NCBI GenBank assembly: GCA_022447825.1
Contig: JAKUTY010000009.1
Span: 1-59,274, forward strand
Origin: SAR202 cluster bacterium
Lineage (GTDB): Bacteria > Chloroflexota > Dehalococcoidia > Lucifugimonadales > UBA826
Length of the DNA stretch: 59,274 nucleotides
Reading direction: 5' to 3'
Shown piece by piece: positions 7,947-50,145 of this stretch. Under the pieces are notes generated by a model, which saw only the letters and a program-made list of their open reading frames with translations, was not told the DNA's origin and ran no database searches. A program made the translations under genes and the position numbers. Position 1 is the first letter of the stretch. Every line of letters begins with the position of its first letter.

Positions 7947-9116
7947 ATGAATTTCAGTTTAACTGACGGAGAGGCTACTTTTAGAGATGAGTTAAGATCT
8001 TGGCTACAATCAGAGTTAGGGGACAGAAATGAAGATGATGAAACTCCTGATGAAGCATGGGACTTTACACTCAAAATGAGAAAAAAGCTTGCTGATAAAG
8101 GTTGGCTGACTATGGCTTGGCCTGAAGAGTATGGTGGACAAGGGGCATCTCATATGATGCAAGTCATTTTTGCTGAAGAAATGTCTTATTTTCGAGCTCC
8201 GGGAAGAGATGTGTTTGGAACTAGAATGATGGCCCCTACATTAATGATTCATGGGACTGACGAACAGAAATCTGAATTTTTGCCACCTGTGTCTAGTGGA
8301 GAAGTTCAGTGGTGTCAGGGATATTCTGAACCTGAGTCGGGTTCTGACTTAGCTTCATTACAAACTAGAGCAGTAGAAGATGGCGATGATTTTATAATTA
8401 ATGGAACTAAAATTTGGACTTCTGGTGCTCATAGGGCAGATCACATAATGGTTCTCACTAGAACAGACCCTGATGCTCCTAAACATAGAGGAATAAGTTT
8501 TTTGTTGTGTGACATGAACACTCCTGGATTGACTGTTAATCCAATTATTAATATGGCGGGTGACCACAGTTTTAATATGGTAACTTTTGATAACGTTAGA
8601 GTTCCAAAGAAAAACTTAGTGGGAGAACAGAATCGTGGGTGGTATGTAGGTGCAACATTATTAGATTTCGAGAGATCTGGTGTAGATTACTCTGCTGGAT
8701 CTCGAAGAGTTTTGGAAGAACTAGTAGGCTACTCAAAAGAAAATTACAAAGATGGTAAATTACTATCTGAGGATGAAGTTACAAGAAACCGGCTAGCGGA
8801 TCTCGCAATTGAAATTGAAGTAAGTAGACTGATTTCTTACAATATTGCTTGGATGCAGGGTGCAGGATTAGTTCCTAATAAAGAATCTTCTATGGGTAAA
8901 GTTTTTGGAACTGAATTGCAACAACATGTTGGCTCTACTGGAATGCAAATGTTAGGATTGCACAGCCAATTAGAACCTGATTCAAAATACGCACCGTTAA
9001 GAGGCAGAATCGAGCATTGGCATTTAACAAATGTTTCTGAAACAATTGCAGCTGGTACTTCAGAAATACAACGAAATATTATTGCAACAAGAGGTCTTGG
9101 ATTACCTAGAGGATAA
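7947..9116 (+). CDS. Acyl-CoA dehydrogenase (FadE-like), copy 1
   Basis: Flavin-dependent alpha,beta-dehydrogenation of an acyl-CoA thioester. The 389 residues show the N-terminal helical domain, a middle barrel with GYSEPESGSDLASLQT (125-140) and NGTKIWTSGA, and a C-terminal helical domain ending AAGTSEIQRNIIA. The MCAD catalytic Glu position is Ala369. Glu242 in LDFERS aligns with the alternative catalytic Glu of isovaleryl-CoA dehydrogenase. The RTQFGRPI FAD-contact motif is missing. It is a close paralogue of the next gene (20-base gap). The substrate is unknown; steroid- or terpenoid-like acids are possible by analogy. Confidence 0.92.
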   Translation: MNFSLTDGEATFRDELRSWLQSELGDRNEDDETPDEAWDFTLKMRKKLADKGWLTMAWPEEYGGQGASHMMQVIFAEEMSYFRAPGRDVFGTRMMAPTLMIHGTDEQKSEFLPPVSSGEVQWCQGYSEPESGSDLASLQTRAVEDGDDFIINGTKIWTSGAHRADHIMVLTRTDPDAPKHRGISFLLCDMNTPGLTVNPIINMAGDHSFNMVTFDNVRVPKKNLVGEQNRGWYVGATLLDFERSGVDYSAGSRRVLEELVGYSKENYKDGKLLSEDEVTRNRLADLAIEIEVSRLISYNIAWMQGAGLVPNKESSMGKVFGTELQQHVGSTGMQMLGLHSQLEPDSKYAPLRGRIEHWHLTNVSETIAAGTSEIQRNIIATRGLGLPRG

Positions 9117-25067: not shown

Positions 25068-25958
25068 TTAAACAGGTAAATCGATACTGTATGAATCCAT
25101 TACAGGGTTAAAATCTTCTATAAAAGATTGATCGGGTTCACATAGTGGAAGTCTGTGAATTCCTGCATCAAATCCATGCCTGTTGACAGCATATTTAACT
25201 GGAATAGGATTTGTTACCCAAAATAAGGCTTTAAATATAGGAAGAAGTCTTTTGTGCTCACTTGCAGCACTTTCTAAATTGCCATCTAATATATACCCAA
25301 TCATTGTTTTAATTTGATTACCTAAGATGTGTGAGGCTACGCTAACTATTCCATATCCTCCAACACACATTATGGGAAATGTTTCATCATCATTGCCTGA
25401 CCAAACATTAAAACCGTCAGGTGCTTTGTCAATAATAGTAGTGATTTGAGTGAAATCACTAGAAGCTTCTTTTACACCGATTATGTTATCAATTTCAGCT
25501 AATCTAAGTGTTGTTTCAACACTCATGTTTAAAGAAGTTCTAGATGGAACATTATATAGAATTCCAGGTAGAGAAGTTGCTTCAGCTATTGCTTTGAAAT
25601 TTCTATACAAACCTTCTTGTGTAGGTTTGTTATAGGCGGGAACAGTTAATAAAAGAGCATCTGCACCTACTTTTTCAGCTTCTTTAGAAAGCTCTATAGA
25701 TTTGTTGTGGTTGTTGTCTGTAGTTCCTGCAATTACAGCTGCAGAATCTCCAACAGCTTCTTTTACTTCTGCAAATAACCTGATTTTTTCATCATCTGAC
25801 ATTGATGGTGCTTCGCCTGTTGTTCCGCCTATTACTAAACCTTCCGTTCCAGAAGAAACAAGAGATTGTGCTAGTTTTCGTGCTTGTGGAAAATTAATTG
25901 TTCCGTCAGCATTGAATGGGGTAATCATTGCAGTAAGTAGTCTGCCAAATTCAACCAT
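25068..25958 (-). CDS. dapA: 4-hydroxy-tetrahydrodipicolinate synthase
   Basis: Condenses pyruvate with aspartate semialdehyde on the way to diaminopimelate and lysine. 296 residues. The GTTGEAP loop, the Tyr in YNVPSRTSLN and the Schiff-base Lys in GVKEASSDF are present. It is last in rpsO-pnp-dapB-asd-dapA, two bases after asd, so the three lysine-pathway steps are made together. There is no room for a terminator before convergent purA. Confidence 0.97.
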   Translation of the reverse strand: MVEFGRLLTAMITPFNADGTINFPQARKLAQSLVSSGTEGLVIGGTTGEAPSMSDDEKIRLFAEVKEAVGDSAAVIAGTTDNNHNKSIELSKEAEKVGADALLLTVPAYNKPTQEGLYRNFKAIAEATSLPGILYNVPSRTSLNMSVETTLRLAEIDNIIGVKEASSDFTQITTIIDKAPDGFNVWSGNDDETFPIMCVGGYGIVSVASHILGNQIKTMIGYILDGNLESAASEHKRLLPIFKALFWVTNPIPVKYAVNRHGFDAGIHRLPLCEPDQSFIEDFNPVMDSYSIDLPV

Positions 25959-37687: not shown

Positions 37688-38465
37688 ATAAGGTTTCGAC
37701 TATTTTTGGGTGAATTGCTTTATTAGAAGATATTGCATGCCCTGATGAATATGATTGAAATCCTGAATCGTCTGTCATTTCACCTCCTGCTTCGGACACA
37801 AGAAGATAAAGTGCAGCTACGTCCCAAATATTTACTATTGGGTCAATCATTGATTCAGCTGCACCTTCTGCCACAAGGCAGTGACCCCAAAAGTCCCCGA
37901 CACCTCTTTCTCTCCATGCAGAGTCTAAAATTTTTTGAAAGTTAGGCCATTTTTTTAAGCATTCTTTAGTGCCTGTAAATAAAACCTGAGATTCAGAAAT
38001 TTGGTCAATTTTAGAAACTTCAATTTTAGAAACCTGATCTTTAAATGATTTGTATGCCCCATTATTTTGAGATGCCCACCATCGGCTTCCTAGAGCAGGG
38101 GCAGAAATCATTGATGTGATGATTTGTTTGTTATGTTCAAGCGCGATTAAGGTTGCCCAAATTGGCATTCCCTTCATAAACCCATGAGTACCATCAATGG
38201 GATCTATAATCCATTTAAAATTTGCTTGAGAATTTTTTTGAGCGGATTCTTCGCCAAAAAAACCGTGAGTTGGAAATTTTTTATTAATCATCGTAGACAA
38301 CAGATCTTCAATTTGTTTGTCTGCATTAGTTACAAAAGAACCGTCTGATTTCTTTTCGATCCCCAGATTTTTTTGTTCAATGAAATTAGGCATTGAAATT
38401 TTGTCTGCAGCATTTGCTAATTGGTGACAGTAATCTAAATAAGTTGAAATGTTTTCTTGGGTCAT
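37677..38465 (-). CDS. Inositol monophosphatase family protein
   Basis: 262 residues. Metal-binding motifs are GEE near 79, WIIDPIDGTHGF and a C-terminal WDVAALYLLVSEAGGEMTD. The form is close to histidinol-phosphatase or inositol-phosphatase members; the substrate cannot be fixed. It overlaps the ubiX start by four bases and is part of the ubiX-ubiA-ubiD operon. Its 3' end overlaps the opposing dehydrogenase gene. Confidence 0.9.
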   Translation of the reverse strand: MTQENISTYLDYCHQLANAADKISMPNFIEQKNLGIEKKSDGSFVTNADKQIEDLLSTMINKKFPTHGFFGEESAQKNSQANFKWIIDPIDGTHGFMKGMPIWATLIALEHNKQIITSMISAPALGSRWWASQNNGAYKSFKDQVSKIEVSKIDQISESQVLFTGTKECLKKWPNFQKILDSAWRERGVGDFWGHCLVAEGAAESMIDPIVNIWDVAALYLLVSEAGGEMTDDSGFQSYSSGHAISSNKAIHPKIVETLSSQ

Positions 38466-39061
38466 TTTTTTTGTGGACCCGTATATTGCATATTCTCAGG
38501 TAATTCATCAGAAAGACCAAGTGCAACTAAACTTTTTTGAGCAAGCACTTCAGCAGATTGTTCTAGTGTTTTGATACCTAAGTAATATGGGGGGTCTGAC
38601 GGTAGAATTGTCACACCAATTTTTGCTAAATTACTAAGATTATCTAGGTGGATAGCATTTAATGGAGACTCCCTAGGAACAATTACTAATTTCCTTTTTT
38701 CTTTGAGGCATACATCCGCAGCTCTTCTGATTAAATTATCAGATAAGCCTGCAGATATAGCGGATACAGTCGCCATGCTGCATGGGACTATGATCATGCC
38801 TTTTGATGGGTAGCTGCCACTAGCAATAGGAGCTGTAAAGTCACCTATTGGAAATATTTCGAATTTGTTATGATCAGACCATCTTTCAATAGATTCTCCA
38901 AATGACTCTTCCATTTCTTGTTGCCAAACCATTCGGGATGGACCTGATGCAACTACAGATACTCCAAAATCATTATCTATAAGTGTATCGATCATTTTTG
39001 AAGCTAGAATAGCTCCACTAGCTCCTGAAATTCCTACTATTACTCTATTTTCTGTATCCAT
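38462..39061 (-). CDS. ubiX: UbiX family flavin prenyltransferase
   Basis: Makes prenylated FMN, the cofactor of UbiD decarboxylases, from FMN and dimethylallyl phosphate. 199 residues. The N-terminal GISGASGAILASKM phosphate/flavin loop, the PIASGSYPSKGMIIVPCSMATVSAIS block and VPRESPLNAIHL are diagnostic. It follows ubiA by two bases, and ubiD lies in the same operon. Confidence 0.96.
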   Translation of the reverse strand: MDTENRVIVGISGASGAILASKMIDTLIDNDFGVSVVASGPSRMVWQQEMEESFGESIERWSDHNKFEIFPIGDFTAPIASGSYPSKGMIIVPCSMATVSAISAGLSDNLIRRAADVCLKEKRKLVIVPRESPLNAIHLDNLSNLAKIGVTILPSDPPYYLGIKTLEQSAEVLAQKSLVALGLSDELPENMQYTGPQKK

Positions 39062-39063
39062 AC

Positions 39064-39936
39064 TTATATTATAGCTAAGAGTGTTCCTAAAAGCATTGAA
39101 CAGGATACAAAAGCATTGATGCGAAGAAATGCAATTCCCATTTTTGACAAATCATCAGGGGAAATTAACATATATTTATAAATCATTAAAAAAGTCGCGG
39201 ATAGGCATCCGAAAAAATAAACATAATTCAAATCTAAAATGAATCCTACAGTTAATAGGCTCATCATTGATAAGACATCCATTATTTTTGAGATTAAAAA
39301 TGCATTTTTAATTCCAAACTTTTTAGCCACTGAGTGTAAATTGTTTTTGGATTGAAATTCTATATCTTGCGAGTGGTACAAAATATCAAAACTGCCTGCC
39401 CAGAATGCTACAGCTAGAGATAAAAGAAATGGAATTATATTGTAAGATCCTGTTACTCCAATCCATGCAGCAGATGGTGCAATAGCTAAGGCCCATCCTA
39501 ATAATATATTCGCTGTCCAGGTAAAACGTTTTGTGTATGGATAAATTGATAAATACAATAAAGCAATAGGAGCTAGAATCAAAGCTACTAGATTTAATTG
39601 AAACGAAGCAAAAAAGAAAATTAAAGCACTTGCAAGTGTTGGAACTAACACCTCTTTTATACTTAATAATCCTTTAGGGATATGTCTCTCAGCAGTTCTA
39701 GGGTTTTTACTATCAATTTGATTGTCAATTATCCGATTCATAGCCATACCAAATGTTCTGGCTGTAATCATCGCTATAGTAATCCATAAAAAAGTTTGGA
39801 TAGTAGGTAGTTTTTGTATTGAGAGAATCATTCCAATGTAGGCAAATGGGAGCGCGAATATGCTTTCTTGAAATTTAATTGCTTGAAAGAAATATTGGGT
39901 TTTATTAATTAGATTTTTAGAGGTCTGATTATTCAA
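39064..39936 (-). CDS. ubiA: UbiA family prenyltransferase
   Basis: Membrane enzyme attaching a polyprenyl chain to an aromatic acid, for ubiquinone or (as MqnP) futalosine-route menaquinone. 290 residues with about eight or nine membrane segments. The first Asp motif is NRIIDNQID, and the second region contains YHSQDIEFQ. It overlaps ubiD by eight bases. Which quinone is made cannot be told from this window. Confidence 0.92.
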   Translation of the reverse strand: MNNQTSKNLINKTQYFFQAIKFQESIFALPFAYIGMILSIQKLPTIQTFLWITIAMITARTFGMAMNRIIDNQIDSKNPRTAERHIPKGLLSIKEVLVPTLASALIFFFASFQLNLVALILAPIALLYLSIYPYTKRFTWTANILLGWALAIAPSAAWIGVTGSYNIIPFLLSLAVAFWAGSFDILYHSQDIEFQSKNNLHSVAKKFGIKNAFLISKIMDVLSMMSLLTVGFILDLNYVYFFGCLSATFLMIYKYMLISPDDLSKMGIAFLRINAFVSCSMLLGTLLAII

Positions 39937-41386
39937 ATCCGTACTCTTTCCATCTTTTATTAATTAAATCTAGTATTTCACTATCCATTTCAACATCTGG
40001 TGGCCATTCTCTAGTCCTACCGTCCATTTTAGTCTTTGTAGTAGCATCTAAGCCAATTTTACTTCCTATTTTGGGAGTTGAACTCGAATGGTCTAAATCA
40101 TCAATAGGTCCATCTAGTATGACAATGTCATTTTTGGGGTCTAAATTGCTTGTGACACGCCATGCAACTTCGGAAACGTTTTGAACATCTACAAAATCAT
40201 CTACAACTATAATTCCTTTAACTAGCATCATTTGGCCTAACCCCCAAAGAGCATTCATTACTTTTCTAGTATGACCAGGGAATTGTTTTTTCATGGATAC
40301 TATAATCAGGTTATGAAATACACCTTCTGCAGGCATGTTTACATCTTTGATTTCAGGTAAAGTTAATTTCAATGCGGGAAGCATTAGTCTCTCTACAGCT
40401 TTACCCATGAAAAAATCTTCAGATGGCGGTCTACCTACTACGGTAGCTGGATAAATGTAGTCTTTTTTGTGAGTAATGGCAGTCAAATGAAATACGGGGT
40501 ATTCATCTTCTAGAGAATAATATCCCGTATGATCACCGAAAGGACCTTCTGTCCTAAGTTCTCCCGGTATCACATACCCCTCTAAAACTATTTCGGAGTT
40601 AGCTGGAACTTCTAAATCTACAGTTTTACATTTCACCATTTCGATTGGAGAGTTTTTGATAACACCCGCTACAGCTATTTCATACATGTCTGGAGGTATA
40701 GGTAAAACTCCGGACCACATTGTTACAGGGTCTCCTCCCAATGCTATAGCTACTTCTAATTTATTAATTTTGTTTTCTTCTCCCGATCTGAAATGGCTAG
40801 CTCCCACTTTATGGGTTTGCCAGTGCATACCCGCAGTTTTTTTATCGAAAATCTGCATTCTGTATATTCCGACATTTTTAGTTTTTGTTACTGGATCTTT
40901 AGAGAAAACTAAAGGTAAAGTGATGTATTTCCCACCATCCATGGGCCAGCATTTCAAGTGAGGAAATACAGTTAAGTCTGCTTCTTCGTTTTCCAATACT
41001 ACCTCTTGTACTGGTGCAGAAGTAATGATTTTGGGTTGAGTCCGCGCTAAAGAAACCAAATCTTTTAATGTGCGTAATTTGTCTATCATCGATGTAGGAG
41101 GTGTTTTTGCGATGTTTAATATTGACTCAACTTTTTCAGTAAGTTCATCCGAATTGTCTATTCCTAACCCCCATGCCATTCTTTGGTGCGATCCAAATAA
41201 ATTGGTTACGACTGGATGATTGAATCCTTTTACGTTTTCAAATAGTAGTGCCGGACCGTTAGATTTAATAGTTCTATCAGTAATAGCTGAGATTTCTAAT
41301 TCAGTTGATACTTCAGCAGTTATTCTAAGAAGATCACCTTTTGTTTCTAAATGTTCTATAAAATCTTGTAAGTTTTTGAATGACAT
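39929..41386 (-). CDS. ubiD: UbiD family decarboxylase
   Basis: Prenyl-FMN-dependent (de)carboxylase of 485 residues. The family N-terminus NLQDFIEHLETKGDLLRI, the ENVKGF segment and the active-site stretch EGPFGDHTGYYS are clear. With UbiX and UbiA it probably decarboxylates the prenylated aromatic acid in quinone synthesis. A role on another aromatic acid remains possible. It overlaps the upstream fusion gene by one base. Confidence 0.95.
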   Translation of the reverse strand: MSFKNLQDFIEHLETKGDLLRITAEVSTELEISAITDRTIKSNGPALLFENVKGFNHPVVTNLFGSHQRMAWGLGIDNSDELTEKVESILNIAKTPPTSMIDKLRTLKDLVSLARTQPKIITSAPVQEVVLENEEADLTVFPHLKCWPMDGGKYITLPLVFSKDPVTKTKNVGIYRMQIFDKKTAGMHWQTHKVGASHFRSGEENKINKLEVAIALGGDPVTMWSGVLPIPPDMYEIAVAGVIKNSPIEMVKCKTVDLEVPANSEIVLEGYVIPGELRTEGPFGDHTGYYSLEDEYPVFHLTAITHKKDYIYPATVVGRPPSEDFFMGKAVERLMLPALKLTLPEIKDVNMPAEGVFHNLIIVSMKKQFPGHTRKVMNALWGLGQMMLVKGIIVVDDFVDVQNVSEVAWRVTSNLDPKNDIVILDGPIDDLDHSSSTPKIGSKIGLDATTKTKMDGRTREWPPDVEMDSEILDLINKRWKEYGFE

Positions 41387-42525
41387 TATTTTTCTGATAA
41401 TCCGCTTAGTCTTAGTTGTGTCGAAGAGATATCGATTCTGAATTTAGATTCAGGGATAGATTTGAAAATTTCAGTAAATCTTTCAGGTATGTTAAGAGCT
41501 GATAATTCTCTAAAACTTCCATCAGACAATCTTCCGGCAACTAAAAAGTCACAGCCAGTTTCTTCAATTTCATGAAGAGAATTGTACATAACATTTTCAC
41601 TTTGGTCGTAATATTTGGGGTTTATTAATCTTGCCGCAGTGTCCCACCCTATTACAAAAGTACTTCCTGGGAAAATTTTGGATTTTTGAGAGAAGAGAGG
41701 GGAATTACTCACTAGAATAGTATGGTTAGATTCGAATTGTGCTAGCCTCGCATTAATTTCATCATTGGATAGAGGTGGTTTATCTACGTTGAATGCAGAA
41801 AGTTCAAAGGCTGGAATTTTATTGGTGATTTGAGAAGCTAGATTTAGTAAATTGATATGTCCTTTATGTATTGGATTAAAAGAGCCTGAAAGGATTACAC
41901 CTGAAAAATTACTGTCAGAAAACTTTGGAGATTTACCTGAATATTCAATCGATTCAATTTGCTTAGATGTCAATGCTGATAATTCATTTTCAAATTGTAT
42001 TTTTGTATTAGAAGTATTTTCGGATCTGATTGAATCGGGGGATTCGCCGAATATTTCTTCATGAAGAAATTCTATGATTGATTGACTGACTAATTCTTCT
42101 TCTTCTCTTCTTGTTAATTTTCCTTTCATAAATTTAATATGAACTGTATTTCGGACACTGTCTGACCAAAAAGAAATAAAAGCTTGGTTGTCTCCCTTTC
42201 TTTTTCTTGATGTACTTATAGCTGCAGTACACGACACACCAACAATCTTATTGTTAGATGATCGTAGTTTAACTCCTCGCCTGTAAGCTTGTTCAGCCAT
42301 CATGAGTGAAGTTGAACTAGAAACAAAATTTTCTGGGGTTGAATTTAAAAGAGCTGTCATGGATTTTTCCGAGTAGGGTACGTTAGCTTCTAAAAGTGAG
42401 TTAGATGCGCCTGGAACTTCTAAAAGCCATGACAATGCTTTGGTACCTGCTCCTGAAACAGATAAAACAATTTTGACATCACATTCATGAATTCTTTCTA
42501 TAGAGTTCTGTATATTTTTTAGCAT
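41386..42525 (-). CDS. CinA-like amidase domain fused to NadD-like nucleotidylyltransferase
   Basis: 379 residues in two parts. Residues 1-160 resemble the CinA C-terminal (nicotinamide-nucleotide amidase) domain: SVSGAGTKALSWLLEVPGAS, PYSEKSMTALL and VGVSCTAAI. Residues 207-379 are a nucleotidylyltransferase with GSFNPIHKGH (214-223, HxGH) and a late ISSTQLR motif, as in NMN/NaMN adenylyltransferases. The combination would deamidate NMN and adenylylate the product, giving NAD recycling in one chain (inference). Related CinA/nucleotidylyltransferase architectures are known in plants. First gene of the ubiD operon; the next start overlaps its stop. Confidence 0.8.
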   Translation of the reverse strand: MLKNIQNSIERIHECDVKIVLSVSGAGTKALSWLLEVPGASNSLLEANVPYSEKSMTALLNSTPENFVSSSTSLMMAEQAYRRGVKLRSSNNKIVGVSCTAAISTSRKRKGDNQAFISFWSDSVRNTVHIKFMKGKLTRREEEELVSQSIIEFLHEEIFGESPDSIRSENTSNTKIQFENELSALTSKQIESIEYSGKSPKFSDSNFSGVILSGSFNPIHKGHINLLNLASQITNKIPAFELSAFNVDKPPLSNDEINARLAQFESNHTILVSNSPLFSQKSKIFPGSTFVIGWDTAARLINPKYYDQSENVMYNSLHEIEETGCDFLVAGRLSDGSFRELSALNIPERFTEIFKSIPESKFRIDISSTQLRLSGLSEK

Positions 42526-43300: not shown

Positions 43301-44716
43301 ATGCAACAATCAGGTGATTATTTAATTAAAAAAAGGCGACAGCGAGACATGTCTCCCAATTCATTTGATGTTAGGGAGAGACGGTTTAGTTCTAAAACTT
43401 TTTCTTCACCTTTTTTAATATCATTGATATTTTTTATTCTAATATCATTGGGATCTATTCTGTTATTACTGCCTTTTTCTCATCATTCAGAAGGTTTAGG
43501 AGATCCAATTGTGGCTATATTCACTGCAACTTCTGCAGTTACTGTTACAGGTCTTGTACTAGAACCTACTAGTGTTTATTGGACAACTTTTGGGCAATCG
43601 GTGATTTTGTTGTTGATGTTTGTAGGTGGATTGGGGATTATGACTATGGCAGCATTTCTTTTGGCAATATTGGGTCAGAAAGTTTCTACATCCCAAAAAC
43701 TTATGATTAGAGAAACCATGAATACAAGCAATATTGGAGGCATTCAGTCTCTTAGTGTGGCTATTGTGGGTACTGCAATTGCTATCCAATTAGTTGGGTT
43801 TGTGCTCCTTTTGGCTAGGTTTTTATTTGTTTTTCCTCTTGATGAAGCTATTTGGCAAGCTTTATTCCATTCAGTTTCAGCTTTCAATAATGCAGGTTTT
43901 CTAGCATTTAGTTCAAAAGAAGGATTGAATCAATTTCAATCTGATTTTGTAGTCATTTCTATTATGACTTGGTTGATAATTTTAGGTTCTTTAAGCTTTT
44001 GGGTTGTGGCTGACATATTTACAAAGAAGCAATTTCGATTGTATTCATTGGTATCAAAAATTGTCATTGTGACTACGATTTCTTTGATTATTATTTCATC
44101 TTCAGCATTTTTCTTTTTAGAGAGAGCTAATGTTCAAACTATTGGGAATTTAAATTTAAGTAATCAAGTTTTTATTTCAATTTTCGAATCTGTTAGCGGA
44201 AGAACTGCAGGTTTTACAACTATTGACTATACGCAAATTAATAATTCAACAAATATTTTCCAAACAACCATGATGTTTATCGGTGGCGCTACTGGATCTG
44301 TTGCCGGAGGAATTAAAGTTACAACTTTATTTGTAATAATTATGAGTGTATTGGCTTTGATCAGAGAAAATCCAGAAATTCACGTTTTTAAAAGACATAT
44401 TGATCAACCCACTGTCATTAGATCTTATGCAATATTAGTTATTTCCTTAATGTTTGTACTTCTTTGTGCGTTTTTATTGTCTATAACCAATGACGGGTTT
44501 TTATTTAAAGATATTTTATTTGACTCTGTATCGGCATATGGGACTGTGGGATTGACTTCTGGAGTGACTGAACAACTTAATTCAATTGGAAAATTAATTG
44601 TGGTTTTTACTATGTTCCTAGGGAGAATCGGCCCTTTAATTATCGGGCTGAGAATGATTCCTACTCAAGAAAATTCAGGATTTCGATATCCAAATGAAAC
44701 AGTTACAATAGGCTGA
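43301..44716 (+). CDS. trkH: TrkH/KtrB family potassium uptake channel subunit
   Basis: 471-residue membrane protein with the four-fold M1-P-M2 pattern. Selectivity segments include TATSAVTVTGL, SAFNNAGF, VSGRTAGFTTID and VSAYGTVGLTSGV. Forms the K+ path and works with the RCK protein encoded next (13-base gap). GAGG lies six bases upstream of ATG. Whether transport is driven by Na+ or H+ is not visible. Confidence 0.94.
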   Translation: MQQSGDYLIKKRRQRDMSPNSFDVRERRFSSKTFSSPFLISLIFFILISLGSILLLLPFSHHSEGLGDPIVAIFTATSAVTVTGLVLEPTSVYWTTFGQSVILLLMFVGGLGIMTMAAFLLAILGQKVSTSQKLMIRETMNTSNIGGIQSLSVAIVGTAIAIQLVGFVLLLARFLFVFPLDEAIWQALFHSVSAFNNAGFLAFSSKEGLNQFQSDFVVISIMTWLIILGSLSFWVVADIFTKKQFRLYSLVSKIVIVTTISLIIISSSAFFFLERANVQTIGNLNLSNQVFISIFESVSGRTAGFTTIDYTQINNSTNIFQTTMMFIGGATGSVAGGIKVTTLFVIIMSVLALIRENPEIHVFKRHIDQPTVIRSYAILVISLMFVLLCAFLLSITNDGFLFKDILFDSVSAYGTVGLTSGVTEQLNSIGKLIVVFTMFLGRIGPLIIGLRMIPTQENSGFRYPNETVTIG

Positions 44717-44729
44717 TATAAGGAACACT

Positions 44730-45395
44730 ATGGCAAATAAACAAGTAGCAGTAATAGGTTTAGGTAGATTTGGTATTAGTACCACAAGAACTTTATATAA
44801 TCTTGGTTATGATGTTTTGGCCATTGATAACAATGACGAAAGAGTACAGGCAGTTTTAGGTCAATGCACTTATGCAGTTACTGCTGATTGTACGAGCGAA
44901 ATTGCATTAAAAGATTTAGGTATTCAAGATTATGAAGTTGTAATTATCACAATACAATCTGATGTAGCTCCCAGTGTAATGATTTCAGTTTTAATGAAAA
45001 CTTTGGGAGTAAAAAATGTAATTGCTAGAGCAAGAGATGCTTTACATGCTAATACATTAAGGAGAGTTGGAGTTGATAGAGTGATTCAGCCAGAGGAAGA
45101 AATGGGTACAAGGCTTGCTCACAGTTTATACAATGCAAGTGTTGAAGAATATATCGGAATTACAAATAATTATGGTGTCAGTAGATTTAGAGTACCCGCA
45201 AGATTTTCAGGAAAAACTTTAGAAGAAGTAGGCTTTACGTCAGCTTCGGATAGTTATGGAATAGCAGCTTTGGCTTTATGTAAAGGTAGAAAAGTTACCT
45301 TGAATCCTTCTTTATCAGAAAAAGTGAAAGAAGGAAATTTAGTTGTTGTAGCTGCACATGACTCTGATTTAGAGTCTTTAGAAAAAGTAACATAA
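44730..45395 (+). CDS. trkA: TrkA/KtrA family potassium uptake regulator
   Basis: 221-residue cytoplasmic ring subunit. An RCK-N Rossmann domain has an intact GLGRFG motif and the nucleotide-gripping Asp in LAIDNNDERV. An RCK-C ligand domain follows from about residue 135. It gates the TrkH channel in response to nucleotides. AAGGAAC precedes the start. Confidence 0.94.
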   Translation: MANKQVAVIGLGRFGISTTRTLYNLGYDVLAIDNNDERVQAVLGQCTYAVTADCTSEIALKDLGIQDYEVVIITIQSDVAPSVMISVLMKTLGVKNVIARARDALHANTLRRVGVDRVIQPEEEMGTRLAHSLYNASVEEYIGITNNYGVSRFRVPARFSGKTLEEVGFTSASDSYGIAALALCKGRKVTLNPSLSEKVKEGNLVVVAAHDSDLESLEKVT

Positions 45396-45417
45396 ATATA
45401 TTTTGTAAGGATATTAC

Positions 45418-45804
45418 ATGTGGGTTGCTTTAGTTGATGGCTCTGATAACGATCATTTAATTATCAAAACCGCTCAGGGATTTCTTAAAAATAAAGAACC
45501 TATGAGATTGTTATATGTTATTGAAGTTTCCAGAGAATTCCCTGTAGATAAAGAAATCACACATCTTACTGAACTAGCTGAGAATTATTTGGAAACATTG
45601 GAAGAAAACAGTAAAAATAATATAAATGCAGATATAGTTCAATCTAGATCTGTTAAAAGTGCTTTGATTGCATTATCTAAAGATGATGATGTTGATGGGA
45701 TAATTATAGGAAACAACAATTTTAAAGATGAGGATTTTCAAAGTATGTCTGAAATAATTAAAAAATCTGAGTGCAACTTGATTTTTTGTAATGCTTTCAT
45801 TTAA
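45418..45804 (+). CDS. UspA-like (universal stress protein fold) protein
   Basis: 128 residues. VALVDGSDND at the start, the LLYVIEVS strand and the late VDGIIIGNNNF segment fit a Usp fold. The ATP-binding GxxGS motif near the end is not conserved, so it may be of the non-ATP-binding type. Usp domains often regulate ion channels. It sits inside the K+ uptake operon, 22 bases after trkA. Confidence 0.75.
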   Translation: MWVALVDGSDNDHLIIKTAQGFLKNKEPMRLLYVIEVSREFPVDKEITHLTELAENYLETLEENSKNNINADIVQSRSVKSALIALSKDDDVDGIIIGNNNFKDEDFQSMSEIIKKSECNLIFCNAFI

Positions 45805-45830
45805 TAAACAAATGATTTTTAGGAGAGAAA

Positions 45831-46298
45831 ATGGTTGATAATATTTCTGATGAAATACCAAATATTTCAAGACCTCAGAAAATCATGGTAGTTGGATGTG
45901 AAAAATTCAGTGCTAGAACAATTAACCATTTATCTAAAGATGGACATGTACTAAAAGTTGTGGAACAGTCTTCAGATAGGTTTAATTTTTTGCCTCAAGA
46001 AAAGATTGATTCAAATAGTATTTCTACCGTTTTGGGAGACTATACCGACAGAAATTTTTGGAATCAAATTAAATTGAATGACATCGATATTTTTATCGCA
46101 GCTACAGAAATAGATTCATGTAATTTGTTTTTATATCATCTAGCAACTCACATTTTAAAGGTCCCTAAAGTTTTTGTGATTTTGAAAGATGGTAAATTAG
46201 CAAATATTTATCAAACTTTTGATATGAAAATTATAAACATTTCTGAATTGGTAGTTAATTCAATTGATAATTATATCAATCACGATGAGGACATTTAA
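45831..46298 (+). CDS. Degenerate TrkA-N (RCK-N) protein, first
   Basis: 155 residues forming only the RCK-N Rossmann domain. Strand 1 is KIMVVGCEKFS: the GxGxxG motif reads GCEKFS, losing two glycines, although the acidic KVVEQSSDR end and the LGDYTDRNFW region remain. NAD(H) binding is therefore doubtful; it may be a structural partner of the TrkA ring. GGAGAG lies upstream, and its stop abuts the next gene. Confidence 0.78.
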   Translation: MVDNISDEIPNISRPQKIMVVGCEKFSARTINHLSKDGHVLKVVEQSSDRFNFLPQEKIDSNSISTVLGDYTDRNFWNQIKLNDIDIFIAATEIDSCNLFLYHLATHILKVPKVFVILKDGKLANIYQTFDMKIINISELVVNSIDNYINHDEDI

Positions 46299-46718
46299 AT
46301 GTACTATGTAATAATTGGTGCTACAACCATATCAGTAGAAATTATGGATTGGCTTATGAAATCTGGTGGTGAAGTTACTCTTATTGATCAAGACATGAAA
46401 AAAATACAATTGATTCAAAGTTCCCATGGAGATGTTTGTAGTTTAGGGGATCCGCTAGATATTGATGATTTGACAAATGCAGGTTTAGGACGTGCTGACA
46501 TGGTAATTTCTTCACTTGAACATGATTATGAAAATTTAATTTTGTCACAAGTTGCTAAGATACATTTTTCTGTTGATAAGGTAGTCAGTTTATTATATTC
46601 ATCAGAGAATAAAGATTTGTTTTCTATGTTAGGTGTTGATGTATTGATTGAAGTTCCGGATATTCTGATAAGTAATATTCAAGAGAAATTAGGACAATTT
46701 TTAATTGAAGAAATTTAA
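46299..46718 (+). CDS. Degenerate TrkA-N (RCK-N) protein, second
   Basis: 139 residues, again RCK-N only. Strand 1 reads YVIIGATTIS, so GxGxxG is reduced to GATTIS. The LIDQDMKKIQ and ADMVISSLEHDYENL segments keep the TrkA-N layout. It is more similar in plan to the previous gene than to trkA. Its stop overlaps the pheA start by one base. Confidence 0.78.
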   Translation: MYYVIIGATTISVEIMDWLMKSGGEVTLIDQDMKKIQLIQSSHGDVCSLGDPLDIDDLTNAGLGRADMVISSLEHDYENLILSQVAKIHFSVDKVVSLLYSSENKDLFSMLGVDVLIEVPDILISNIQEKLGQFLIEEI

Positions 46719-47545
46719 TGACAAATAAGAGAATTTCATTTTTAGGTCCTGCGGGTACTTACAGTGAACAAGCTGCACAGATTTGGTGTGGAGAATGTGA
46801 CCTGGTTTCTGTCGATTCTATTCCAGATGTTGCTCAAGCTGTTAATGATGGGAGAAGCGAAATTGGGATTGTACCAATTGAAAACAGTATAGAAGGAGGA
46901 GTGACTTTTACTCTTGATTTATTAATTCACGATTCTGATTTGAGCATTTGTGGAGAAATTGTTATTCCTATAAATCATAATTTGATGTCAAAAAATGAAA
47001 TAAATTATATTGATATTAAAACTGTTTACTCCCACCCTCAATCTTTGGGCCAATGCAGACAATTTTTAGCATCAAATTTACCAAATGCTAATTTGGTTGC
47101 ATCTTTAAGTAATTCTGCCGCAGTAGAAGAAATGATGAACTCCCCAATAAACTCTGCTGCTATTTCAAGTGATCAGGCAGCGAAAATATACGGTGCGAAA
47201 ATTTTACAGAAAAATGTTGAAGATCGATCTAATAATGAAACTAGGTTTATAGTTTTGGGTAAGAGTGATCATCCAAAAACTGGAAATGATAAAACTTCAC
47301 TATGTTTTGAGTTCCAAGGTGACCAGCCGGGCATTTTGAGTGAATCTCTTACAGAGTTTGCTTCAAGAGATATTAATCTAGTCAAAATAGAATCTAGACC
47401 TAATAAAAAGAGCTTAGGTAGATATGTTTTTCTAGTTGACATAGAAGGTCATAGAACTGATCAAAAAGTTACTCAATCCATCAATGCTTTATCTAGTAAA
47501 GTTGCAATGATTAAAATTTTAGGATCATACCCTAAATTTATTTAG
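46718..47545 (+). CDS. pheA: Prephenate dehydratase
   Basis: Converts prephenate to phenylpyruvate for phenylalanine. 275 residues without a chorismate mutase domain. FLGPAGTYSEQAA, the VPIENSIEGGVTFTLDLL block and NNETRFIVLGK form the catalytic part. A C-terminal ACT domain has GILSESLTEFASRDINLVKIESRP, the Phe feedback site. Its link to the K+ operon is probably positional only. It overlaps the convergent YtxH gene by eight bases. Confidence 0.96.
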   Translation: MTNKRISFLGPAGTYSEQAAQIWCGECDLVSVDSIPDVAQAVNDGRSEIGIVPIENSIEGGVTFTLDLLIHDSDLSICGEIVIPINHNLMSKNEINYIDIKTVYSHPQSLGQCRQFLASNLPNANLVASLSNSAAVEEMMNSPINSAAISSDQAAKIYGAKILQKNVEDRSNNETRFIVLGKSDHPKTGNDKTSLCFEFQGDQPGILSESLTEFASRDINLVKIESRPNKKSLGRYVFLVDIEGHRTDQKVTQSINALSSKVAMIKILGSYPKFI

Positions 47546-47879
47546 GATCTCCAGTTTCTGAATTGTTTTCGCTACTATCTTTAGAAAACTGTTTACTGAT
47601 TTCATCAATTAAAGGAGAAAATTTTTCCTTGGCAGTAGAAATGGTTGGAGCAATTCTATTAGAAATTTCAGTAACACCTGGTGAAATAGTTTCTCTTAAA
47701 GAACTTGTTAGATCTTCAGCTTTAACTTTGATGTCATCTGTTTTTTCAAGTAGTTCAGATCTCATTTGAGACCCAGGTTTCGGCGCAGACAATATACCTG
47801 CTACTGCTCCAATTAGGCCTCCGATTATAAGGCCAGTAGTGAAACCTGAATTGTGATTGTGGTCATGATGTTTTGACAT
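47538..47879 (-). CDS. YtxH domain-containing protein
   Basis: 113 residues. A glycine-rich hydrophobic segment GLIIGGLIGAVAGILSAPKPG followed by a long amphipathic helix is the YtxH layout of small envelope-associated proteins of unknown role. The N-terminus is His-rich (SKHHDHNHN) and could bind metal. Nine bases after the 84-residue membrane protein. Confidence 0.82.
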   Translation of the reverse strand: MSKHHDHNHNSGFTTGLIIGGLIGAVAGILSAPKPGSQMRSELLEKTDDIKVKAEDLTSSLRETISPGVTEISNRIAPTISTAKEKFSPLIDEISKQFSKDSSENNSETGDPK

Positions 47880-47888
47880 TTCAGCCTC

Positions 47889-48143
47889 CTACGACTTTTT
47901 AGGTTGATTTAGTTTACTTATAAATTTTATCCCTCTTGCTACTCTTTTAATAGTAGTTGAGCTGATTTGGGATGGATTAGAAAAAATGTTAATGAAATCC
48001 ACAACCTCATTTTTAGTTTTACTAAAAGAATCTAAAACCTTTGTGATCTTTCTGAATAAAACTACAACTAGAAAGCTTATCAATAAAAGGCTGACTATTA
48101 AAACTATGTCTGCAACCAGTGAAATTATTTCAACAATTTCCAT
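47889..48143 (-). CDS. Small single-pass membrane protein (DUF948-like)
   Basis: 84 residues. One long N-terminal membrane segment (about 5-30) is followed by a basic helical tail ending PKKS. DUF948-like proteins commonly sit next to YtxH proteins, as here. Function unknown. A start at 48143 follows AGGTAAG. Confidence 0.72.
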   Translation of the reverse strand: MEIVEIISLVADIVLIVSLLLISFLVVVLFRKITKVLDSFSKTKNEVVDFINIFSNPSQISSTTIKRVARGIKFISKLNQPKKS

Positions 48144-48166: not shown

Positions 48167-49138
48167 TTATGGCTTGATAAGCATTCTCAAAGATCCTTCA
48201 GGGTCTTTTCTTTGAGTAATAATGTCATGCTTATTTTTTTCGGCCCAAACAACTAAGTCGTATGAGTTCAGAACATCTGGAATTATCACTTCTACAAATG
48301 ATTTAGAATCCTCGGTAATTTGTTGAGATAAAGCAGCAATTATTCCAGCACAAGTTTTTCCTGTTCCATCTATTACCCTCCAATTGTCTGCATTTATAGG
48401 ATTTTTCCCACTGTATACGTCCACCTCACCACTTTGCCTTAGATCTAACTGTGTTTTGAAGTCAAGTACAGATTCCCAGTAAACTCTCGAGTCTCTATCA
48501 CCTTTTTGGCATACAGCTCCTCTGACGCCAACAATGTCTGGATTCACTCGAGCCAATTCATCTAAGTCATCCATTTTTAAATGACCTGACAAGGCTGTAC
48601 TCATTCCTAACTCTTTTCCTTCTAAGACCATTTCTTTGAGACGTTCTTCAGGAATGAAATCAAATAGATTTCTCCCATCTTTTACCAATGTGTCAATTAA
48701 CCAGCCGTCACATTGTGATTCTTTTGCTAACTTCACCATGAGATTAGGGTCAATTCCACCTTTATATAGCAAATTGTCTGCAAATAAAGACCCGATTAAT
48801 TTGGTTTCAGTATTTGCTAGGGATTCTTTAGAAGCTTGTAGAATTTCTAATGCCTGTTCATATTCACTAACCATAAATCCTACTTTGACTGATGTAGCTT
48901 CCAAAAGTCCAGCAGCATACACAGCCATAGCAACAGTGCCAACCTGATTAGGCACCACTCCTAAAGTTAGGCTAGCGTGATGGTTTCCTGGGACCTCATC
49001 TCGAACTTGTTTGAATGTATTAGGATGTGCTGACCCTACCAAAGCTTCTTGTAGGTTTTTAACATCTACAATATCGGCACCACCCTTTAGGGCTTGTTTG
49101 GCTTCATAAAGATCTTGCACACTGACCATCAAAATCAT
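48167..49138 (-). CDS. MfnB-type furan-phosphate synthase fused to a TusA-like domain
   Basis: 323 residues. Residues 1-235 match the (5-formylfuran-3-yl)methyl phosphate synthase family (DUF556): GGADIVDVKNLQEA with Asp25 and Lys27, Lys85 (SVKVGF), Lys153 (LIDTLVKDG), and the GPDIVGVRGAVC-like block NPDIVGVRGAVC. Lys27 is the Schiff-base lysine in the methanogen enzyme. Residues about 252-323 look like a TusA sulfur-carrier domain: VIDGTGKTCAGIIAAL with Cys263, then VVWAEKNKHDIITQ and a closing LRMLIKP strand; the usual CPxP reads CAGI. Fusion and function are inference. It lies 23 bases after a DapA-like aldolase gene. Confidence 0.8.
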   Translation of the reverse strand: MILMVSVQDLYEAKQALKGGADIVDVKNLQEALVGSAHPNTFKQVRDEVPGNHHASLTLGVVPNQVGTVAMAVYAAGLLEATSVKVGFMVSEYEQALEILQASKESLANTETKLIGSLFADNLLYKGGIDPNLMVKLAKESQCDGWLIDTLVKDGRNLFDFIPEERLKEMVLEGKELGMSTALSGHLKMDDLDELARVNPDIVGVRGAVCQKGDRDSRVYWESVLDFKTQLDLRQSGEVDVYSGKNPINADNWRVIDGTGKTCAGIIAALSQQITEDSKSFVEVIIPDVLNSYDLVVWAEKNKHDIITQRKDPEGSLRMLIKP

Positions 49139-49161: not shown

Positions 49162-50145
49162 CTATAAGGATATCATTGATTTGTTACGTGCTTTTGCGAT
49201 GTCATTTTTTAAATCTGTTTTCTCAGAATCTGACAAGTCTACCAATGGAGCTCGTACAGAACCTCCGCTCATTCCCATTAATTCGCCCCAGAATTTACAT
49301 AGAGAGGCGGGTAGTGCTCCGTTCATTTTTTTGACAGTATACTGCCACCATTTGTCAGAAACAGATTTGATAGGAGCGAGATGTTCTTCATACATTTCAA
49401 TATCTATATTTCCGTTTATTGCTTTATTAATAAATTGCACGTAATAGTTGTGTTCTGGTGTATCAAATCTCCAGTCTGAAGTGTTTGCAAACATTACCTT
49501 TTGTTGGAATCCCAATTCTTTTCCTTTATGGAAAATCCATTCGTCAGGAGTACTGATGAGCTTAGTCTCACCTAAAGATAAGTGAGTTTCTACGGATATC
49601 TCTGGGTTAAAGCTAGCTTCTTTTACCCCTACAACATTTTGTATTTTACAGATTTCTTGGAGTCCATTAGCACTCATTGTGATTCCAAATTGAGGAGAGT
49701 TATAAAACATAATTCCTAAGTTTGTGTTTTGTGATAACAGGTTTACCCATTCAATTACCTGTTCTTCTTTATTCGTAACAAAGTAAGGTGCGGCTAATAC
49801 TAGTAAGTCGAAGTTTTGGTTTTCTGCGTGGTTTGATAGGTCAATTACACTTTTTATTGAAGAATGAGAGACATGAGCTGCAGTTAATAGTTTGTCTTGA
49901 GATTCATCAGCTACAATATTGTAGATTTGTTTTCTCTCTTCAATAGTTAGGCTCCAAAATTCTCCCATACCCCATGTGCATCCTGCTCCCTTTGTGCCTA
50001 AATTGATGAGTCTTCGAACATCATTTCTAATACCTTTTTCATCAATTTCATCATCTGATGTGAAAGGTGTCATCAATGTAGACCATTGACCAGTTACATT
50101 GATATTGGCCCATTCTTGAGCTTCATTTTTAGAATAATTTGACAT
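49162..50145 (-). CDS. DapA-like (dihydrodipicolinate synthase superfamily) aldolase or lyase
   Basis: 327 residues, class I aldolase barrel. The Schiff-base Lys is in VVGVKEASF and the Tyr in MFYNSPQFGI. The substrate loop reads GCTWGMGE where true DapA has GTTGE, and lysine synthesis is already served by dapA at 25068. It is therefore a different member (sugar-acid, hydratase-aldolase or similar). GAGGG precedes the ATG. Encoded directly upstream of the MfnB-TusA fusion, so the two probably belong to one pathway. Confidence 0.88.
   Translation of the reverse strand: MSNYSKNEAQEWANINVTGQWSTLMTPFTSDDEIDEKGIRNDVRRLINLGTKGAGCTWGMGEFWSLTIEERKQIYNIVADESQDKLLTAAHVSHSSIKSVIDLSNHAENQNFDLLVLAAPYFVTNKEEQVIEWVNLLSQNTNLGIMFYNSPQFGITMSANGLQEICKIQNVVGVKEASFNPEISVETHLSLGETKLISTPDEWIFHKGKELGFQQKVMFANTSDWRFDTPEHNYYVQFINKAINGNIDIEMYEEHLAPIKSVSDKWWQYTVKKMNGALPASLCKFWGELMGMSGGSVRAPLVDLSDSEKTDLKNDIAKARNKSMISL

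Follow-up and report, generated by a model that had tools for sequence, protein, structure and literature searches.

The minus strand of positions 48167-49138 of the window, which is the whole stretch of 59,274 nucleotides analysed here, contains a single uninterrupted open reading frame of 323 codons; the plus strand of this interval is closed by many stop codons. A preliminary description of the gene, which gave no strand, had read the product as a fusion of an MfnB-type synthase with a TusA-like domain whose cysteine stands at the carrier position. This reading is borne out by the match to PF04476, by the structure matches and by the invariance of Cys263; the sulfur-containing or thiolated furan that the description further suggested is a hypothetical product. 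In the full-length AF2 model, a TIM barrel is followed by a low-confidence linker (residues 245-250) and a separate C-terminal domain. The description covered the MfnB and TusA domains; the gene for a DHDPS-family aldolase directly upstream was absent from it. The earlier observation is confirmed and at the same time enlarged to a lineage-specific, conserved DHDPS/MfnB/TusA unit, whose features are listed in Table 1. The genome containing the window comprises 1.38 Mb with a completeness of 97.85%.

Table 1. Positions of the unit, its domains and its key codons within the window
Feature	Coordinates	Strand	Evidence
MfnB-TusA fusion gene, 323 aa	48167..49138	minus	open frame; full-length homologues in 118/250 order genomes
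N-terminal MfnB-like (PF04476) TIM-barrel domain, residues 1-235	48434..49138	minus	Pfam, PDB 4rc1, Foldseek
Lys27 codon, predicted Schiff-base lysine	49058..49060	minus	aligned with MJ1099 Lys27; invariant 67/67
Lys85 codon	48884..48886	minus	aligned with MJ1099 Lys85; invariant 67/67
Lys153 codon (MJ1099 Lys155, substrate-binding)	48680..48682	minus	alignment; invariant 67/67
Variable linker, approximately residues 236-250	48389..48433	minus	low conservation; pLDDT <50 at 245-250
C-terminal TusA-fold domain, residues 251-323	48170..48388	minus	PF01206 matches of homologues, AF2, Foldseek
Cys263 codon, predicted persulfide cysteine, motif DGTGKTCAG	48350..48352	minus	invariant 67/67; helix start
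DHDPS-family class I aldolase, 327 aa, obligate partner, 23 bp upstream	49162..50145	minus	PF00701, 88.2 bits versus 22.1

The MfnB-like barrel and the TusA-fold domain

Residues 3-225 match PF04476 with an E-value of 6.7e-55 and 186.8 bits (cut-off 22.4; the curated threshold is passed) and MJ1099 from Methanocaldococcus jannaschii (PDB 4rc1) with an E-value of 6.5e-42. When the barrel model was compared to 4rc1_C by Foldseek, a TM score of 0.93 by target length and an rmsd of 1.4 were obtained, the match comprising 235 columns with 37% identity. The barrel of PF04476 is common to the SAR202 protein, MJ1099 (4rc1, 4u9p) and Orf22 of Methylorubrum extorquens. The residues singled out as catalytic in the preliminary description were chosen correctly, as D25, K27, K85 and K153 align with D25, K27, K85 and K155 of MJ1099. 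Together with D149, R206 and R215, the counterparts of D151, R208 and R217 in the alignment, they are invariant in all 67 aligned SAR202 sequences, so that Asp25, Lys27, Lys85, Asp151, Lys155 and Arg217 (MJ1099 numbering) are shared with the MJ1099-type enzymes. We take Lys85, Asp25 and Asp151 of MfnB to have catalytic roles. Lys27 of MfnB is the Schiff-base residue (PMC6604932); moreover, two lysines and two aspartates are essential, and Lys155 and Arg217 bind the substrate or are candidates for binding phosphate (PMC6604932, PMC11365854).

In contrast to MJ1099 and Orf22, the SAR202 protein contains the TusA-fold C-terminal domain, has an obligate DHDPS partner and is changed at several positions of the pocket region. 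For instance, the substitutions P29L, G32A, D61V, K65Q and S188H (MJ1099 numbering) are found in every member, and the residues replaced are conserved in MJ1099 and in at least most of four bacterial homologues. In addition, the protein falls far short of the NCBIfam equivalog cut-offs of NF002573 (186 bits versus 341) and NF002575 (171.6 versus 304). Judged by these residues, the MfnB-like domain has kept its catalytic apparatus, but its pocket probably differs from that of canonical MfnB. Since pocket-region residues conserved elsewhere are altered in every member, the known furan reaction may be lost, and the formation of 4-HFC-P from two glyceraldehyde-3-phosphates may not be retained.

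The synthesis of methanofuran and methylofuran is known from methanogens and methylotrophs (PMC8141765). Among the 60 genomes of the near sample, including that of the window, neither formylmethanofuran formyltransferase (FTR, PF02741) nor MfnF (TIGR03123) was detected in a search validated by positive controls in two methanogens. The SAR202 genomes thereby differ from the hosts of MJ1099 and Orf22 in both tested families of the pathway. As FTR and MfnF are missing from all 60 genomes, we rejected methanofuran or methylofuran biosynthesis as known as the function of the fusion protein.

The sequence of the C-terminal domain yields weak profile scores. The match of the window protein to PF01206 (E-value 0.015) covers positions 2-69 of 70 and reaches 15.6 bits against a cut-off of 28.6. 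Hence, of the two Pfam assignments put forward in the preliminary description, PF04476 stands far above its cut-off and PF01206 falls below it for the window protein. PF01206 is matched by the C-terminal domains of all 47 homologues (best E-value 4.8e-7), most of them below the cut-off and one, from the relative G031, just above it with 28.8 bits. A sequence search of the PDB with a profile of the C-terminal domain returned two chance-level matches only. The TusA layout proposed for this domain is supported by structure prediction, the AF2 domain showing a pLDDT of 92.5 and a beta-alpha-beta-alpha-beta-beta topology. With TM scores of approximately 0.8 (0.80/0.80 to 3hz7 and 0.80/0.77 to 3lvj), the domain model matches E. 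coli TusA, a SirA-like protein and YeeD; the Foldseek E-values for this short domain are approximately 0.01-0.03, and the best E-value belongs to a methyltransferase at a TMq of 0.63.

In the full-length model, helix 263-276 begins with Cys263, which thus occupies the carrier position of TusA. The domain shares with TusA, SirA and YeeD (PF01206; 3lvj, 3hz7, 8k1r) the fold, the topology, the cysteine at the N-terminus of helix 1 and the preceding Asp and Gly. Like Cys263, residues D257, G258, G260, E283, D294, W298 and H304 are invariant in the 67 sequences. The claim of a single cysteine holds for the C-terminal domain; in the whole protein, C143 and C210 are invariant as well. Unlike TusA, SirA and YeeD, the SAR202 domain is fused behind an aldolase, scores mostly below the Pfam threshold and carries CAG[IV] in place of CPxP: in all 67 sequences Cys263 is followed by A/S-G/S-I/V without the prolines. 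The invariance of Cys263 favours a domain that still carries sulfur, whereas the loss of the prolines and the weak scores disfavour it. Cys263 may be loaded as a persulfide and transfer sulfur.

The genome contains genes of the cysteine desulfurase superfamily, and at the loci examined no dedicated sulfur gene linked to the module was found. A stand-alone TusA with a CPYP motif is encoded at G000:C21 11084-11287 (L123 5076-5309, minus strand) beside a predicted lipoprotein resembling a two-domain rhodanese; these two genes likely represent the ordinary sulfur relay of the genome. The stand-alone TusA was dismissed as a necessary donor, as it is absent from many module-bearing genomes.

Conservation of the unit and its DHDPS-family partner

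The preliminary description had proposed to look for the same fusion in related genomes. The full-length fusion is present in 41 of the 60 genomes of the near sample and in 118 of the 250 genomes of the order (SAR202-type Chloroflexota). A class sample of 393 genomes yielded 19 matches, including one to an ordinary stand-alone TusA. Every complete copy spans both domains, partial matches being located at contig ends, and an MfnB without the TusA domain was not seen in the near sample, the class sample or the order. PF04476 was detected in two of 400 sampled Chloroflexota genomes, namely that of the window and one relative, both of which carry the fusion. The gene usually occurs as a single copy and is likewise present in genomes that are listed with a single contig, such as G020 and G048. 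The refuted possibility of an assembly chimera or a chance resemblance, to which the weak TusA score of the window protein alone might point, is therefore ruled out by full-length homologues across the near sample, the class and the order, as well as by the structure matches of the C-terminal domain and the conserved linkage and motif. Hence, neither of the refuting conditions named in the preliminary description, a C-terminus without a TusA-fold match or a fusion confined to this assembly, applies. Second copies of the module were observed in two MAGs (G011:C40, L088, and G030:C29, L076), each being closest to the copy of another family, and the score of L076 is identical to that of L075. These second copies are probably due to bin contamination.

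MfnB homologues on Streptomyces, Azospirillum and Rhizobium plasmids align up to residue 238 only. In Streptomyces (L117, L118), an operon of MfnB, ALDH, ADH and methyltransferase genes represents a bacterial MfnB outside methylotrophy with approximately 35% identity; it contains neither a TusA domain nor an adjoining DHDPS partner.

At all 49 loci examined, the DHDPS gene is located upstream on the same strand or is fused in frame, and in 60 of 60 genomes the DHDPS and MfnB-TusA genes are either both present, in equal copy number, or both missing. In one clade (99/92 support), the three domains are encoded by a single DHDPS-MfnB-TusA gene of approximately 670-740 codons. The other neighbours vary among distant lineages, where UbiD-UbiA-UbiX, DNA glycosylase, CinA, PaREP1 and xanthine-dehydrogenase-type genes are found, which argues for the DHDPS and MfnB-TusA pair, and not a longer operon, as the functional unit. 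The downstream genes for a YtxH-like and small membrane proteins (47538-48143) were rejected as partners, since they adjoin the module in near relatives only.

Like DHDPS, N-acetylneuraminate lyase and KdgD (PF00701), the partner contains the Schiff-base lysine in a GVKEAS motif and the tyrosine in YNSP; these residues, Lys175 and the catalytic Tyr148, are invariant in all 47 sequences. In contrast to these enzymes, it carries GMGEFW for GTTGE, is not DapA and is tied or fused to MfnB-TusA. The GMGE sequence (residues 59-62) that replaces the 2-oxoacid carboxylate-binding motif is conserved almost throughout (G59 in 45, M60 in 46, and G61 and E62 in all of the 47 sequences). As GTTGE binds the carboxylate of the 2-oxoacid, pyruvate may not be the substrate of the partner. 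The window contains a second DHDPS gene on the minus strand (25068-25958) with a strong family score of 287.9 bits, which presumably is the true DapA. The presence of this stronger DHDPS gene indicates that the partner is a divergent paralogue. The unit, a novel variant of familiar domain families, probably acts in a new pathway.

Candidate reaction and competing explanations

The reading that we tentatively prefer, with a confidence somewhat short of even, is that the DHDPS aldolase, the MfnB aldolase and the tethered persulfide carrier together convert triose phosphates to one small molecule, into which sulfur is inserted. For this model we infer the order of reactions, the substrates, the persulfide loading and the sulfur transfer as follows. 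The MfnB domain would bind triose phosphates at Lys27, and the route would proceed, like that of MfnB, via an enol-methylglyoxal or a furan-aldehyde-phosphate intermediate. The DHDPS-type domain would add a 2-oxoacid to that aldehyde, or remove one. A cysteine desulfurase, presumably one of the superfamily members of the genome, would load Cys263 as a persulfide, and the flexible linker would let Cys263 hand the sulfur to an electrophilic intermediate in either barrel. The product would be a sulfur-containing small molecule of C6 or longer, but not methanofuran.

ThiG/ThiS provides a precedent for a Schiff-base TIM barrel supplied by a sulfur carrier. Both ThiG-ThiS and BexX-CysO comprise a Schiff-base TIM barrel that acts on a sugar phosphate and is fed by a small sulfur-carrier protein; in contrast to the SAR202 unit, the carrier is a ubiquitin-like thiocarboxylate and not a TusA persulfide, the barrel belongs to another family and the carrier is unfused. 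For MfnB, it has been proposed that one glyceraldehyde-3-phosphate is converted to an enzyme-bound methylglyoxal enol and another to DHAP, followed by condensation and cyclisation (PMC11365854). The enzyme-bound unsaturated intermediate of this proposal renders an attack by a persulfide plausible. A more specific version, in which the TusA persulfide feeds the two Schiff-base aldolases to yield a SAR202 sulfur heterocycle (e.g. a thiophene or mercapto-furan) as cofactor or metabolite, is speculative and, in our estimate, has a low probability. If it were true, the formation of the C-S bond would parallel that by ThiG/ThiS with a persulfide carrier instead.

The sulfur model is weakened by CAG[IV] in place of CPxP, by the mostly sub-threshold TusA scores and by the lack of a linked sulfur gene at the loci examined. 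These features, as well as the many module-bearing genomes without a stand-alone TusA, are consistent with its main rival, an unlikely but serious explanation in which the TusA-fold domain has lost its role in sulfur transfer and serves in docking, oligomerisation or redox-sensing, the product being a sulfur-free furan or another condensate. However, in a domain that has diverged to approximately 50% identity among members, Cys263 and the TusA-like positions around it are invariant, and a purely structural domain would be expected to tolerate the loss of the cysteine. The pocket-region substitutions of the MfnB domain and GMGE in the partner count against the sulfur model too.

A sulfur-free furan would likewise result if the MfnB domain made ordinary 4-HFC-P and the partner extended the aldehyde with pyruvate or another 2-oxoacid, modelled on hydratase-aldolases acting on aromatic aldehydes, with the cysteine as a thiol handle. 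Every tested catalytic residue of MfnB is retained in the SAR202 domain, as are the Schiff-base lysine and the tyrosine of the partner, and other bacterial MfnB operons, such as that of Streptomyces, are also unlike methylofuran clusters. This explanation nevertheless appears distinctly unlikely, given the substitutions in the pocket region of MfnB and GMGE instead of GTTGE in the partner; moreover, it assigns no specific function to the invariant cysteine of the TusA domain.

Still less probable is a catabolic unit that would cleave a furan- or sugar-acid-derived compound of the dissolved organic matter to trioses and pyruvate, with the TusA domain accepting sulfur from a thiolated substrate. 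Furan formation by MfnB, which involves the loss of phosphate and water, is effectively irreversible, which counts against this direction. Furthermore, a transporter or uptake gene is not consistently linked, and the retention of the unit in a small genome of approximately 1.2 Mb (G047) suggests a biosynthetic role. Support for a catabolic function could be seen in the location of some fused loci beside a xanthine-dehydrogenase-type oxidoreductase and in the description of SAR202 bacteria as degraders of recalcitrant organic matter with non-phosphorylative sugar-acid pathways (PMC6946804, PMC10444878).

SAR202 bacteria abound in the ocean, and most of what is said of their biochemistry is deduced from genome sequences. 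In this context, a conserved, self-contained enzyme consisting of two aldolases and a sulfur carrier points to a metabolite that has not yet been looked for. If sulfur transfer as assumed in the sulfur model takes place, the unit would represent a new route to C-S bonds on sugar-phosphate intermediates, and the furan-forming MfnB family would be in use outside methanofuran chemistry. As the unit consists of one or two genes, it is directly tractable in vitro. In a limited literature search, in which absence is no proof, we found no description of SAR202 in connection with methanofuran or furan, nor of TusA fusions or of TusA together with 4HFCP or DUF556; the SAR202 pangenome and cultivation papers do not mention furan, TusA or dihydrodipicolinate.

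Other genes in the vicinity of the module

Three genes of the UbiX, UbiA and UbiD type lie in a row on the minus strand of the window (38462-41386), the UbiD protein scoring as menaquinone decarboxylase TIGR03701. At the fused loci L079 and L085, UbiX/UbiA/UbiD-type genes are located directly upstream of the DHDPS-MfnB-TusA gene. Of the 41 module-positive genomes, 39 encode the menaquinone-type UbiD, compared with 7 of the 19 module-negative ones (Fisher p 2.4e-6), and in 23 of these 39 genomes its gene is located at most 25 kb from the module. As this association is confounded by phylogeny and ancient synteny, we rejected a menaquinone link and retain it as a lead only.

In one family, the fused gene of some members (L128, L130, L135 and L140) is followed downstream by genes for the FAD, 2Fe-2S and molybdenum subunits of a xanthine-dehydrogenase-type enzyme. 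A gene with the annotation of a xanthine dehydrogenase subunit also lies next to a distant homologue of the partner aldolase in Chelatococcus (L115).

On the minus strand of the window (41386-42525), a protein of 379 aa contains a cytidylyltransferase-like domain at residues 212-372 only, and its N-terminal half has no match in Pfam. The plus strand of the interval 43301-46718 encodes a Trk-like potassium-uptake membrane protein and, after it, three related TrkA-like open reading frames (221, 155 and 139 aa), as well as a 128-aa open reading frame resembling a universal stress protein; this arrangement recurs in relatives. Finally, three acyl-CoA dehydrogenase genes in succession, two further open reading frames and a gene for a family III CoA-transferase are located on the plus strand between positions 7947 and 14242 and probably constitute a catabolic cluster.
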